A DNA stretch of 64,000 nt, taken from positions 1 to 64,000 of the forward strand of contig JANBVO010000017.1 of the NCBI GenBank assembly GCA_030052745.1. Direction: 5' to 3'. A program made the position numbers and the translations under genes. Positions 54,997 through 60,180 of this stretch are shown piece by piece. Numbering within the stretch: position 1 is the stretch's first letter; the number at the start of each line of letters is the position of its first letter. The notes below the pieces were generated by a model that worked only from the letters and a program-made list of their open reading frames with translations, did no database searches and was not told the origin of the DNA. The stretch comes from Pleurostoma richardsiae. Lineage: Eukaryota; Ascomycota; Sordariomycetes; Calosphaeriales; Pleurostomataceae.

Positions 54997-56906
54997 GACT
55001 GTTTGTAGGCAGGGCGTGGCGGACGCCCTATATGTCGCGTAGCTCGCAAGCGCCGGTGTTCGGGGGAGGTTCGAAGAGAGAGGGTCGGCGAGAACTGGAG
55101 ATGCTGACTGCACAATGGGGGGCCGTTCAAAGCATCTTAGCTATCGCCGTCCGCGGTTCGATGGCCCAGTGTCGAGTATGCCAGTATGCTGTGATGCAAG
55201 AGGAAAGCGAGGGCAACAGGCAGAAACTGCCAAAGAAAGAGGGAGAACAATGTCCGGGGGGCTCAGCGGCGACATTTGACATTTCCTGCCACCTGCAGCT
55301 GCAAGGCCTCGACCGATTGAGCCTTGAGCCCTGTTTGGGCGTGGCTTCGCGAGCCGCCAGATCCCTTGTGGTCGTAGCTCGGGCAGCTGAGCCCCGATTA
55401 TGTAATGAGAGACCGGGGGGAGGGCAAGGGCGGGACCGTTTCGGCGCGTGGGGCGGATCCCGCGGCCCTTTCCGACCCGAGCCGGCGTCGTCAAGCGCCG
55501 GCAGTGGGGCCACATCTCCTACCTAGCAGTCCTTAGACTCCTAGGTAGGTACCTTACCTTCGCCACTGCTGCTAGGAAGGGTATCAAAATACCTGAAGTA
55601 AGGTATCAGGGATGTCTACGGAGGACTCTACGAAAAAAGAAATGTCTCCCCAGTTTCGATTAATCCGGCAATATGCAGCGTGGGTTTGACTTGCAGGCCT
55701 ACTATGCTGTAGGGTCCCCTTCCCCTTGGGTACTTATTTAGAGGTCTTGCGATGTAGCTCCATCCGTACAGGAGGTCTTTTGGCTCAACCTCCCTGAGGA
55801 GATAGTGACAGTGACACGCCGACACCCAGCCCCAACCTCTTCCATAGAGTCTTCTTGCCATCCATTCACTGCTCCTAAATCTTGTTGAGCTTTCGATTCC
55901 GCGTGACGGCATAATTCAGTATTACCCAGAGGCCGCCCCAGAAGTCAATGTGACTGACTTTGCAGCTGTTAACAATTGACAGACAGAATAAGACATGGGA
56001 TATCGTCCCAGTGAACACGAAGAAATCTGACCACTAGCAGAGACAGATATGGGTTACCTGAGAGAACCAGACAACAGGAAGGGGGTCTCTTTATGCTGCC
56101 GACGTCTTCCCTAGATTATTTTCTATCCCGTGCCCTCCACTCCTTGAGGCACCGCCTATGATCTTCCACTGCATGGTATGCCCTTTTCCTTTGTTGCTGT
56201 GCTGTCCGCTTCAATATTCAGCACGGGTAGGCAGCCTTCACCAATCTCAAACGAATGTCATCTCGTCTATCAGCAAACTTCGGGGCGGCACCCTGCTCTA
56301 ACACATGCTTTCCGAGTCTCTAAATTCTTGATGGACGATCAATGGGCCAATTAGTCGGAAATTTGATAAACACTCCGGACCAACCTACGTTCAGTGCTGA
56401 CAACCGTGACCGATGCAAGATTAAGATGGCTACTGACCGTATCGTGTATTTGTCTTTCTAGGCGTTAGACGAACTTCTCAAAATGTACCTTCTCCGTAAT
56501 AATGAAAGGAAACTGATGAGAATATCTCGAGGCTTTTGTTCACTCAATGTCTGAATAGAGCCTGATTCAGATGCCGGAAGAACATCGGGCATTCGGAGTG
56601 GAGGAGGGATATCTGCATGATAATTCATGGAGACACCAAACCTGCTTAAGATGGAAGTTGAGTTGATGAAAAGGGAGTCTTTGTCCCTCTGTCTTTGTAA
56701 GGTGTGCGGAGGACCAACGTTTTGCGGCTTTATCCAGCCCCGAAACACCAACAGTCTTTTCCGTTCTCCTCATTTTTTCCATAACCCAGGGACCTTAACA
56801 TCTCCAACGTCAAATTGAAACACTGAAACAGCAAGATTAAAAAAGAAAAACACTTTTAGTAATGCGGCAGAATGCTCAGGCATCCCCTAATGATGACCGT
56901 GGTCTA
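54997..56906. other. Divergent intergenic region
   Basis: This 1.9-kb stretch lies between the modin-like and the PAQR start codons. It becomes AT-richer towards the PAQR side. No exon, repeat or RNA gene could be supported. Confidence 0.5.
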
Positions 56907-59472
56907 ATGACTTTGGCTGAGACATGTTAGTTGCGAGCATCATTTATGACCCGTTACCTGCACTGACGTTCAGGCCCAGTGCCATGGCAAAGGTTATAAT
57001 GGTTCAATATACTTAGTCTATCTGTATAACTCATCTATATCTAGGGATAATGAGTACATCCTGACTGGATACCGGTAAGTGAGCTCCTTTCGTCATTTGG
57101 TGGTGTATACTGTCTATTGCAATCTCGTGTTCGCCCCCCACTTTTTTTCATTCCCCCGCACACATCGAATCTCAAGATGACCAAATACACGATTTTATCT
57201 ATTCTAATATAGATATCTCGTCCAATTCTATGTTGTTCGGTTTCTTATTATATTTGATATGTAGGTCTAACTGTTACGTACTTATCTATATAAATAAAGT
57301 TATATTTTGATCTCTTTTCAGTAGTAAAACTGTTGTTATATAGGAAAAATTACTGTCTTCTTGACTGTCTTTCTAGCTATCTAGCTATCTCTCTAGTTGT
57401 CTCTCTGGCTATCCTTCTGGCTGTCCTTCTGACTGTGAGCCTGGCTGGCCATCTGGCCATCTCTCTGGCTGTCTTTCTGGCTGTTACCCTGGCTATTACC
57501 TTGGTTGTTACCTTGGCTATCTCTCTGACTGTTTTTTTGGCTATCCTTCTGGCCTTCCTTCTAGCTATCTCTCTGGCTGTCTCTCTGGCTATCTCTCTGG
57601 CTGTCTCTCTGGCTATCTCTCTGGCTGTCTCTCTGGCTGTCTCTCTGGCTATCTCTCTGGCTATCTCTCTAGCTGTCTCTCTGGCTGTCTTTCTGGCTGT
57701 CTTTCTGGCTATCTCTCTGGCCGTCTCTCTGGCTGGCCGTCTGGCCATTTCTCTGGCTGTAAGCCTGGTTATGAACCTAGCTAGCCGTCTAGCTATCTCC
57801 TTAGCTATTACCTTAGCTATTATCTTAGCTATTACCTTAGTTGTTTATTTCCTTAGCTATTTCCCTGGCTATTTCCCTAGCTATTTCCCTAGTTATTTCC
57901 CTAGTTATTTCCCTAGCTTCTTCCTTAGCTGTTTAGTTAGCTATTTAATTAACCTTTTAGTTAACCTTTAATTATCTCTCTAACTATCTTTCTAAATATC
58001 TTCCTAGTTATTTCTATCTCTCAAGCTATTTCCCTAGCTAGCTCTTTACTTGGCTCTTTAACTGTTTATCTGATAGCTAGGAAATAGACCAGGAAAACAA
58101 CTAGAAAACTAGTCAAAGAGCTAGCCAGAAAGACAGCCAGAAAGCCAGCTAGAGAGATATCCATAAAGATAATCAAGGTAATAACCAAAGGAATAACTAG
58201 ACAGCCAACTAGACGGATAACCAGACGGCTAGCCAGACAGCCAGAAAGACAGCCAGAGAGACGGCCAGAGAGATAGCCAGAAAGATAGCCAGAGAGACAG
58301 CCAGAAGGATAGCCAGAAGGACAGCCAGAGGGCCAGCTAAGAGGGATAGCGAACCAGAGAGTTAGCTAAGATAAATCAAGCAACTTAAACACTTATAAGA
58401 TATATTTTATATAGATAGATACCTAAGAACTATATCTATTTATCAAACGTAACCGCAAACCGAACAGAATTATATTAAGCAAGAAATATGCTTAAGAATA
58501 GATAAAATCGTGAATCTGGTCATGTCGCGATCTGACGTGTGTGGGGGAATGAAAAAAAGTGGGGGGCGAACACGAGATTGCAATAGACAGTAACAAACTG
58601 GGAGACGACACTGATCCTGGACGTACAGCCTCGCCTCGTATTCGTACCTGATCTCGGCCACAAGTATATTTCGCCTCCACAATGAAACCGGTATTCTCTT
58701 CACTCCCAACCCACCAGAGGCGATCTCAACTGACCCCGTGGCAGTCAATATCTGGTCGCACACGCTGGGCGCCCTGCTCTTCGCCGCCCTGTTCGTTAAG
58801 TTCCTCGTTCTGGCCAGTTTCCACGATGGTCGCCACTTTGCGGACGCCACCGCCGTTGGCGTTTATTTCGTTGGTGTTATCGTGTGCTTTGTCCTCTCCA
58901 CGACGTTTCACACCTTCTCGGACCACAGCCCACACATCCACAGGTTCGGCAACGAGCTGGACCATCTCGGCATCGTGCTCGTCATGTGGGGGACTGGGGT
59001 CTCTGGCGCGCATTTCGCCTTTTACTGCCACGCGGCTATCCGCAACACATACTTCATTCTGCTAACCGTCACTGCTATTGCCTGCGCCGTCTTCACGCTC
59101 AGGCCAAGGTTCCGACAGCCGTCATATCGGACCATGCGGTTCCTAATGTACTTCTTTCTGGGAGCAAGTCTCTTTACCCCTCTTGTCCACGGTGCATCTC
59201 AGGTCGGTTTGTTACAGCTAGACACGATGATGGGGCTGAAATCTTTCCTAGCGTTGGGTGTCATCAACTTTTCTGGTGCTGCCATCTATGCCCTGAGGAT
59301 CCCCGAGCGCTGGTGTCCAGGGAGGTTCGACCTCGCGGGACAGAGCCACAACTGGATGCACTTGTTGGTCCTCACCGGCGCGCTGGTCAGATTGGATGGC
59401 TTGATGGTCGTGTTGCGGCGGTGGCAGGAACATGGAGATATTGATGGTTACTGCACAGTCTTAGCTGCCTGA
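56907..59472 (+). CDS. PAQR (adiponectin receptor/haemolysin III) membrane protein with a foldback element in intron 3 (285 aa)
   Basis: The protein is a seven-helix PAQR receptor related to yeast Izh proteins, which affect zinc and lipid homeostasis. Exons are 56907-56925, 56974-56992, 57045-57074, 58629-58690 and 58745-59472. The spliced N-terminus reads ...CPVPWQRDNEYILTGYR, then LASYSYLISATSIFRLHNET and VNIWSHTLGAL, the classic family opening. Zinc-site residues are intact: S95 and H99 (LSTTFHTF), D116 (NELDHLGI), H245 and H249 (QSHNWMH). RIPERWCPGRFD is also typical. Exons 3-5 are firmly placed. The two 19-base exons before them are less certain, although PWQR joins perfectly onto DNEYI. 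Intron 3 is 1,554 bp because a foldback element lies in it. An N-terminal extension encoded further upstream is possible. Confidence 0.75.
56926..56973 (+). other. Proposed intron 1 of the PAQR gene
   Basis: This 48-bp intron has a GTTAGT donor, a CTGAC branch-like site close to the end and a TTCAG acceptor. It is supported only by reading-frame fit. Confidence 0.4.
56993..57044 (+). other. Intron 2 of the PAQR gene
   Basis: This 52-bp intron has a weak GTTATA donor, a TATAAC branch and an ATCTAG acceptor. It joins PWQ-R across the junction to DNEYILTGY. Confidence 0.6.
57110..57157 (+). repeat. Left terminal inverted repeat of the foldback element
   Basis: These 48 bases are identical to the reverse complement of 58543-58590. 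The first mismatch is at base 49 (G against A). Confidence 0.92.
57360..58020 (+). repeat. Minisatellite, left arm (12-bp unit CTGGCTRTCTCT)
   Basis: The core at about 57406-57756 repeats CTGGCTRTCTCT with A/G and C/T variation, so the frame encodes Ser-Leu-Ala-(Ile/Val) units over some 200 codons. Towards the centre the unit degrades to TTAGCTATTWCC-like copies. The open frame (57333-57971) is a by-product of the period of 12 and not a gene. Confidence 0.88.
58081..58370 (-). repeat. Minisatellite, right arm (mirror orientation)
   Basis: These are units of the form AGCCAGAGAGAYAGCC, the reverse complement of the left-arm repeat. The arm is shorter than the left, and its order from degenerate inner units to regular outer units mirrors the left arm. 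Confidence 0.85.
58543..58590 (-). repeat. Right terminal inverted repeat of the foldback element
   Basis: This is the exact 48-base reverse complement of 57110-57157 and is followed by the flanking TA. Confidence 0.92.
58691..58744 (+). other. Intron 4 of the PAQR gene
   Basis: This 54-bp intron has donor ACCG|GTATTC, a CAACTGAC branch and a GTGGCAG acceptor. Phase 1 rebuilds HNET-VNIWSH. Confidence 0.88.
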
Positions 59473-60180
59473 CCACGTCATATCTCGACCCTAGGCACAG
59501 ATTCATCACGGGGACAATATGACCGAGACGGACAGAGTATCTAAGCTTTGTCCTGAACAACCACATGACGACTACTTGCACGTGTGAAGTAAACCACGGC
59601 ATGATTCATGCTGAGACAACAAGCTCTCGACTTCGTCATAGACACATGGAAGCTATACGCACGGTATCTATAGGCTCGCTTGAACGGTCATGGTACTGGT
59701 GAGAGTTTCTTAAATTGGCTTATTGAGCTACTGCGAGGTTAAATACGTATCTGTAGCTTCGTATATCATATATAAAGCGCTCGTGATGAGTCCACTATCC
59801 CAAGAGCAGCACATGTCGGCAGCGACAATCGAGACGAAGAAGCGGAACGCACAGAGGGTGTGCTGGGGGGTAGGGGGGAGGGCGCGGGGAGGGGCGGTGT
59901 GGCTTGAAAAGACGACACATGTGAGGGCTTTGAGCCGCGCATAGTGATAGCTGTCGATAGCGCTTTGTACCTTGCAGCGCTAACACGTATAAAGTGACGT
60001 TGAAGGTGATGCTAAATGTCAAACTTTATTATGAGCATTGAATGTACTTCGTGTGATAGGTTGGGATACTTGGAAAATCAGGACCATGTGTGGCTCAAGT
60101 CGTATTGGCATAGTTTGCACTATCGGGCGTCCATACCACGAGATATTGGCAGCTTGATAATACATGCAATCCCTGATACA
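59473..60180. other. Convergent intergenic region
   Basis: This 0.7 kb between the 3' ends of the PAQR and SMP-30-like genes shows only short overlapping frames. Confidence 0.55.

Follow-up and report, generated by a model that had tools for sequence, protein, structure and literature searches.

A foldback transposon of a Tc1/mariner-type family, probably inserted into a short intron of a PAQR receptor gene in Pleurostoma richardsiae

How does a gene whose introns 1, 2 and 4 measure 54, 52 and 54 nt come to hold a third intron of 1,554 nt, and how could its transcript still be spliced? The question is raised by the PAQR gene of Pleurostoma richardsiae (order Calosphaeriales), which lies in the window analysed here (the 64,000 nt at positions 1-64000 of the 711,114-bp contig C46, in a genome of 39.4 Mb and 136 contigs). 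The gene is laid out as follows:

56862..59472, + strand: PAQR (HlyIII, adiponectin-receptor-like) gene; spliced translation equal to protein P0001; HlyIII profile E=3e-51
56862-56925, 56980-56992, 57045-57074, 58629-58690 and 58745-59472, + strand: PAQR exons, the last including the stop
57075..58628, + strand: PAQR intron 3, GTAAGT...TACAG, 1,554 nt

The joined exons give, letter for letter, P0001, a deposited P. richardsiae 'Adiponectin receptor protein 1' of 298 aa, which was also the best of 182 database relatives of the PAQR protein. The deposited gene model omits all 1,554 nt of intron 3, and it may be of purely computational origin. Intron 4 (58691-58744) sits within an otherwise single open frame. 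An alignment with human AdipoR1 spanned residues 21-278 and showed that the H, D and SHxxxH metal-site motifs are retained; I take these to be the zinc-site motifs. A preliminary description made from the sequence had given a 1,554-bp intron with a GTAAGT donor and a TACAG acceptor, and zinc-site residues that are kept downstream of it, and both held, with the donor at 57075, the acceptor ending at 58628 and the motifs present in the AdipoR1 alignment. Searching the genome with the HlyIII profile returned 5 matches at 3 places, the PAQR gene counted among them; the two other HlyIII genes had, by eye, no intron at the GYR position and were therefore of no help in dating intron 3. Rfam, searched for known structured RNA over 56800-59500, gave zero matches at gathering level.

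Intron 3 contains an element of 1,481 nt at 57110-58590, with these parts:

57108..57109, no strand: left TA (target duplication); TA outside 46/46 pattern-matched family ends (see below)
57110..57157, + strand: left 48-nt terminal inverted repeat, 48/48 complementary to the right end
57108..57294, + strand: left outer arm, 187 nt with the TA, 79% complementary to 58406-58592
57380-57760, + strand: left 12-bp-repeat array, consensus TCTGGCTGTCTC, 31.8 copies
57790-57946, + strand: left 12-bp-repeat array, consensus TAGCTATTTCCT, 12.8 copies
58123..58330, + strand: right 12-bp-repeat arrays (e.g. AGACAGCCAGAA), the reverse complement of the left unit type
58406..58592, - strand: right outer arm, 187 nt with the TA
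58543..58590, - strand: right 48-nt terminal inverted repeat
58591..58592, no strand: right TA (target duplication)

The inverted ends match perfectly over exactly 48 nt, and the length, ends and flanking TAs of the element are those that the preliminary description had claimed. The outer arms show 40 mismatches over 187 nt, 24 of them transitions. Further inside, the left half carries the 12-bp unit CTGGCTGTCTCT and the right half units of the reverse-complement type, with arms that are imperfect and of unequal length; when the centre was set at 58050, 393 of 543 predicted pairs crossed it. The longest frame, of 225 aa, is the 12-bp repeat read through. It had zero Pfam matches at 0.1, and a coding role for it was rejected, since a stop-free 12-bp repeat yields such a frame by itself. 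With arms that make up most of its length, tandem repeats within these arms and no transposase of its own in the longest frame (the one that was scanned), the element has the foldback features tested and works like a foldback element. MITEs are short, a few hundred bases, and a strict MITE was rejected at 1,481 nt here and 1,546 and 1,150 nt in other copies. Among 33 left 12-mers counted, the commonest change (14/33) turned the G that follows T into A at position 7. RIP would give this change, but the CA/TG substrate indices of the foldback copies (0.99-1.22, see below) differ from the low values of three ~4-kb copies or parts, and RIP is a possible cause of the 12-mer variation.

Taking out the element and one TA, with 35 nt before and 38 nt after the element, left an empty intron that was recomputed as 71 nt with donor and acceptor intact, in agreement with the earlier claim. 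TAs occur in it at positions 2, 32, 34 and 67; those at 2 and 67 fall in the donor and acceptor, and the insertion was at the central TATA. The branch-point consensus is YNYTRAY, and the only match to it in 58591-58628 lies 3' of the element:

58609..58615, + strand: candidate branch-point motif CACTGAT, A at 58614, 14 nt before the final intron base

I consider it very probable that a non-autonomous foldback transposon, belonging to a Tc1/mariner-type (DD34E, TA-inserting) family, was inserted into a PAQR intron of formerly ~71 nt; the foldback insertion into a normal-size intron that had been proposed is supported by the TA flanks, the 71-nt remainder and the further family copies. The PAQR pre-mRNA carrying the element would still be spliced, as is predicted for intron 3, and the insertion would be tolerated because splicing removes the element. 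The identity of the ends over 48 nt fits a fairly young insertion, if the ends began identical, but as an age signal it is weak, since these 48 nt were delimited by the very absence of differences; the inner arms are 21% different.

Alternatively, an introner-like element could have created intron 3 as a whole. Introners are present in Pezizomycotina, and target duplications were found in 49 of 130 and inverted ends in 72 of 177 scorable introner families, with ascomycetes an outlier for DNA-transposon signatures (PMC9860276), and symmetrical introns with 45-55-nt inverted ends are described from Hypoxylaceae (PMC8469720). Here, however, donor, acceptor and candidate branch point are all external to the element, and the 71-nt remainder is near the size of the gene's other introns. 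The internally symmetrical (stw)introns of Hypoxylaceae resemble intron 3 in inverted-repeat length and in a predicted hairpin that brings the donor near the acceptor, but their inverted repeats form the very ends of the intron and, in the available text of that report, the intron itself proliferates without flanking duplications, whereas here a transposon lies within an existing intron (PMC8469720). Since the splice signals are outside the element, which supplies no splice sites, an introner was rejected as extremely improbable, and the insertion of a foldback transposon into a pre-existing intron was retained.

The preliminary description had also suggested looking in the genome for other copies of the ends flanked by TA, and such copies were found. 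A DNA search with the element gave at least 97 overlapping matches. An end pattern of 30 bases, run over the 39.4-Mb genome with up to 3 mismatches allowed, hit 46 places (44 with 0 mismatches and 2 with one) and the reversed pattern hit 0, so the matches are beyond chance. TA lay directly outside all 46 of these ends and on both sides of the PAQR copy, the target duplication of Tc1/mariner elements, which in fungi insert at TA. By their inner sequence, 21 ends were of the foldback type and 25 of a ~4-kb type (22 of the latter typed by script and 3 by eye, namely two that the script left unclassed and the 46th end).

Foldback copies with both ends matched were the PAQR copy on C46, one of 1,546 bp on C50 and one of 1,150 bp on C2, the last two sharing the 12-bp-repeat layout of the first; C70 and C71 hold parts of foldback copies. 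A diverged copy of ~1.0 kb on C76 (L014, C76:266800-269300), 60% identical to the PAQR copy, has a degenerate left end that was not pattern-matched and TC outside instead of TA, and is apparently an old insertion. As the PAQR copy is only 79% identical to the C50 copy and 76% to the C2 copy, with its own inner arms 21% different, the family is diverse. In six foldback copies or parts, the CA/TG substrate index was 0.99-1.22 (window background 1.22) and TA/AT was high (1.05-2.15 versus 0.64).

Of 45 tabulated family ends, 23 lie within 200 nt of a contig end, a circumstance that would fit an assembly artefact, in which a palindrome or a 12-bp array was misassembled into intron 3. This is very improbable for the PAQR copy, which is internal to a 711-kb contig, has TA at both ends and outer flanks that rejoin into a splice-competent intron, and has 221, 139, 112, 103 and 0 of its 1,461 21-mers in common with five other foldback copies. 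The transposon insertion was thus kept as the preferred reading. For 22 of the 23 ends the distance is 70-75 nt, which suggests that contigs were broken at this transposon repeat by short-read assembly, and the copy number of the family is therefore a lower bound. As an observation in its own right, 23 contig ends of the assembly fall at copies of this one transposon family (C3, C9, C11, C17, C33, C35, C43, C47, C57, C61, C67 and C72, and further C84, C86, C93, C95, C96, C109, C110, C112, C121, C122 and C130). In an outer-flank codon-score scan, which is crude in that introns and intergenic DNA are indistinguishable to it, 4 of the 45 ends (both ends on C13, C43:3627 and C50:271282) had a scored frame reaching to within 1 nt of the insertion.

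Six facing pairs of ends were 4,043-4,045 bp apart (two on C1 and one each on C13, C44, C50 and C67), and the copies at L009:2353-6395 (C1) and L010:1406-5450 (C67) aligned over their full length at 79%. Foldback and ~4-kb ends matched at 93-98% over the outer 49-57 nt, and the two groups have in common only about the outer 60 nt; 8 of the 1,461 21-mers of the PAQR copy are common to each of two ~4-kb copies. The DDE_3 profile (PF13358) had 16 genome matches, 8 of which fell, by position, inside ~4-kb family copies; the remaining matches belong to other loci. The copy on C45, cut by the contig start, has a 258-aa open frame that matched DDE_3 at E=4.8e-30 and shows the catalytic residues D...D-34-E when the frame is read by eye; HTH_33 scored under its cut-off in this frame. 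The foldback element hence shares its inverted ends with an element that bears a transposase domain. The single in-frame stop upstream of the 258-aa frame falls in a 63-nt GT...AG stretch, which looks like a small intron. Relatives of the C45 transposase, 120 listed of 1,068, were 167-375 aa long, and the rows naming an organism were all fungi.

TA insertion, and ends in common with DD34E relatives, are what the putative assignment of the foldback element to Tc1/mariner rests on. To judge from these shared ends, the ~4-kb relatives are the likely source of its transposase, an enzyme that would have acted in trans to place the foldback element at one of the TAs in the central TATA.

The CA/TG index of four ~4-kb copies or parts was 0.15, 0.30, 0.62 and, on C45, 1.06; three of the four look RIP-mutated, and the C45 copy has an open catalytic domain. 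The C67 copy (L010:1406-5450) has 22.6% GC and the index of 0.15, typical of heavy RIP, and the C45 part, at 54% GC, appears untouched by RIP. The C45 copy also has a 711-aa frame (L025, C45:1-6000, positions 1-2136, + strand), open at the contig start and on the opposite strand to the transposase. It had zero Pfam matches at E 1, and the 7,990 candidates scored, those with the most words in common, contained no relative at 0.001, which is weak evidence of absence; it is possibly a second gene of this Tc1/mariner-type element. Separately, the DDE_3 matches at L030 (C68), L031 (C65), L036 (C83), L037 (C1), L038 (C66) and L040 (C102) are at loci that did not align to the ~4-kb family DNA, and these would represent other Tc1/mariner-type families in the genome.

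Caenorhabditis Tc4 and Tc6 provide an animal case of the foldback form within the Tc1/mariner world, and their arms are not known to consist of short tandem repeats. Among fungi, the Tc1/mariner elements and MITEs of Sclerotinia sclerotiorum have inverted ends that are about as long (44-70 nt among the rows listed) and likewise combine a DDE transposase with end-preserving non-autonomous derivatives that are possibly moved in trans (PMC4188875). The Tc1/mariner elements there are 1.4-2.3 kb in the rows listed and have HTH_psq/HTH_Tnp_Tc5 transposases, compared with ~4 kb, DDE_3 and a second long frame in the presumed donor here; the MITEs there are 481-813 nt and, in the available text, show no sign of RIP, whereas 1.0-1.5-kb foldbacks with 12-bp-repeat arms are found here (PMC4188875). 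Long inverted arms, internal tandem repeats and variable structure, as seen here, are known from Drosophila Galileo of the P superfamily (PMC3573991) and from Tetris, for which Mutator has been suggested (PMC4079207). The repeat unit of Galileo and Tetris is about 210-220 bp in the parts of these reports available, in contrast to the 12-bp unit, TA duplication, DD34E relatives and fungal host of the present family. Tetris has its outer ends in common with DAIBAM, and a single autonomous element is believed to mobilise the two (PMC4079207).

The second half of the question concerns splicing. Intron 3, in its full 1,554 nt, was predicted to fold at -697 kcal/mol, with 48/48 end pairs formed at a mean probability of 0.999; folds with the element shuffled averaged -405 kcal/mol and reached -440 kcal/mol at the lowest. 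Yeast zipper-stem introns have published limits of 42-85 for the total linker, with >=10 from the 5' splice site and >=20 from the branch point, together with a stem of >=6 bp and a helix-confidence test of 70% (PMC12350175). In intron 3, linkers of 35 nt to the 5' splice site and 23 nt to the assumed branch point total 58 nt, and the published rule, as coded here, returned a zipper stem of 63 bp in the minimum-energy fold, so the geometry fits the stem and linker limits with the branch point assumed. The stem in Saccharomyces cerevisiae is backed by chemical probing in vivo, while that of intron 3 is predicted and its arms are the transposon's own (PMC12350175, as far as its available text goes). 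The arms would pair into a long hairpin that starts 35 nt past the 5' splice site and ends 23 nt before the branch point, and by way of this zipper stem the spliceosome would meet about the original spacing. That the element itself might aid the splicing of intron 3 by such arm pairing is a tentative proposal, which I put at somewhat below an even chance. The linker is the native spacing plus the duplicated TA, so any well-paired foldback at this place would fit; the zipper fit is a consequence of foldback architecture and needs no adaptation.

The same foldback insertion could also have a hairpin that is of no help, with the intron removed by ordinary donor and acceptor recognition, or spliced poorly to give a reduced-expression allele, and the chances that this is so are about equal to those that it is not. 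When the element was dinucleotide-shuffled 100 times, 8 shuffles formed a stem of >=6 bp within the zipper limits but none formed one of >=48 bp, as against the real 63 bp, and the real fold energy is lower than that of any shuffle. Measured from 5' splice site to branch point, the graph distance came to 6 both in the real and in the empty intron, and ten simple shuffles gave 6-37, one of them at 6. Between the 5' and 3' splice sites it was 10 in the real intron compared with 7-26 in the shuffles (3 of 10 at <=10), as the ends of folded RNA tend to lie close together anyway. The minimum-energy fold pairs the linkers too, up to an outermost backbone pair at 57078-58612. This is tighter than those limits permit and takes up some bases of the assumed branch-point motif, which speaks for a hairpin without benefit; the empty intron is predicted to form the same flanking pairs as the full one.

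Whichever way the hairpin acts, the foldback insertion joins three features that are usually apart, namely foldback arms made of short tandem repeats, a transposase source of the fungal Tc1/mariner type and an intron insertion that spares the splice signals. Among the literature matches listed (open-licence literature, by titles and abstract starts), no foldback in a fungal intron and none of this transposon family was found, nor any fungal Tc1/mariner foldback with this architecture or in an intron. It has been suggested that separate transposon lineages evolved the foldback form on their own, and most of the foldbacks known have been assigned to Mutator (PMC4079207); this makes a fungal Tc1/mariner-type foldback that shares its genome with its likely donor a useful example. 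The PAQR intron also makes it testable whether a transposon can conceal itself in a short intron by pairing with itself. A broader and rather unlikely version is that foldbacks are self-splinting passengers of introns, which, placed between donor and branch point, would make a ~70-nt fungal intron 20 times longer and yet leave splicing unblocked, and equally long unpaired inserts would be purged. If true and general, self-splinting foldbacks would be a route to long introns in compact-intron genomes. Profile matches in the genome to Piwi (3), Dicer_dimer (2) and DNA methylase (2, one barely above cut-off) indicate that RNAi and RIP machinery may be present, and the excised hairpin, if it forms as proposed, could provide a double-stranded RNA trigger, driven by the host, against other copies in the family.
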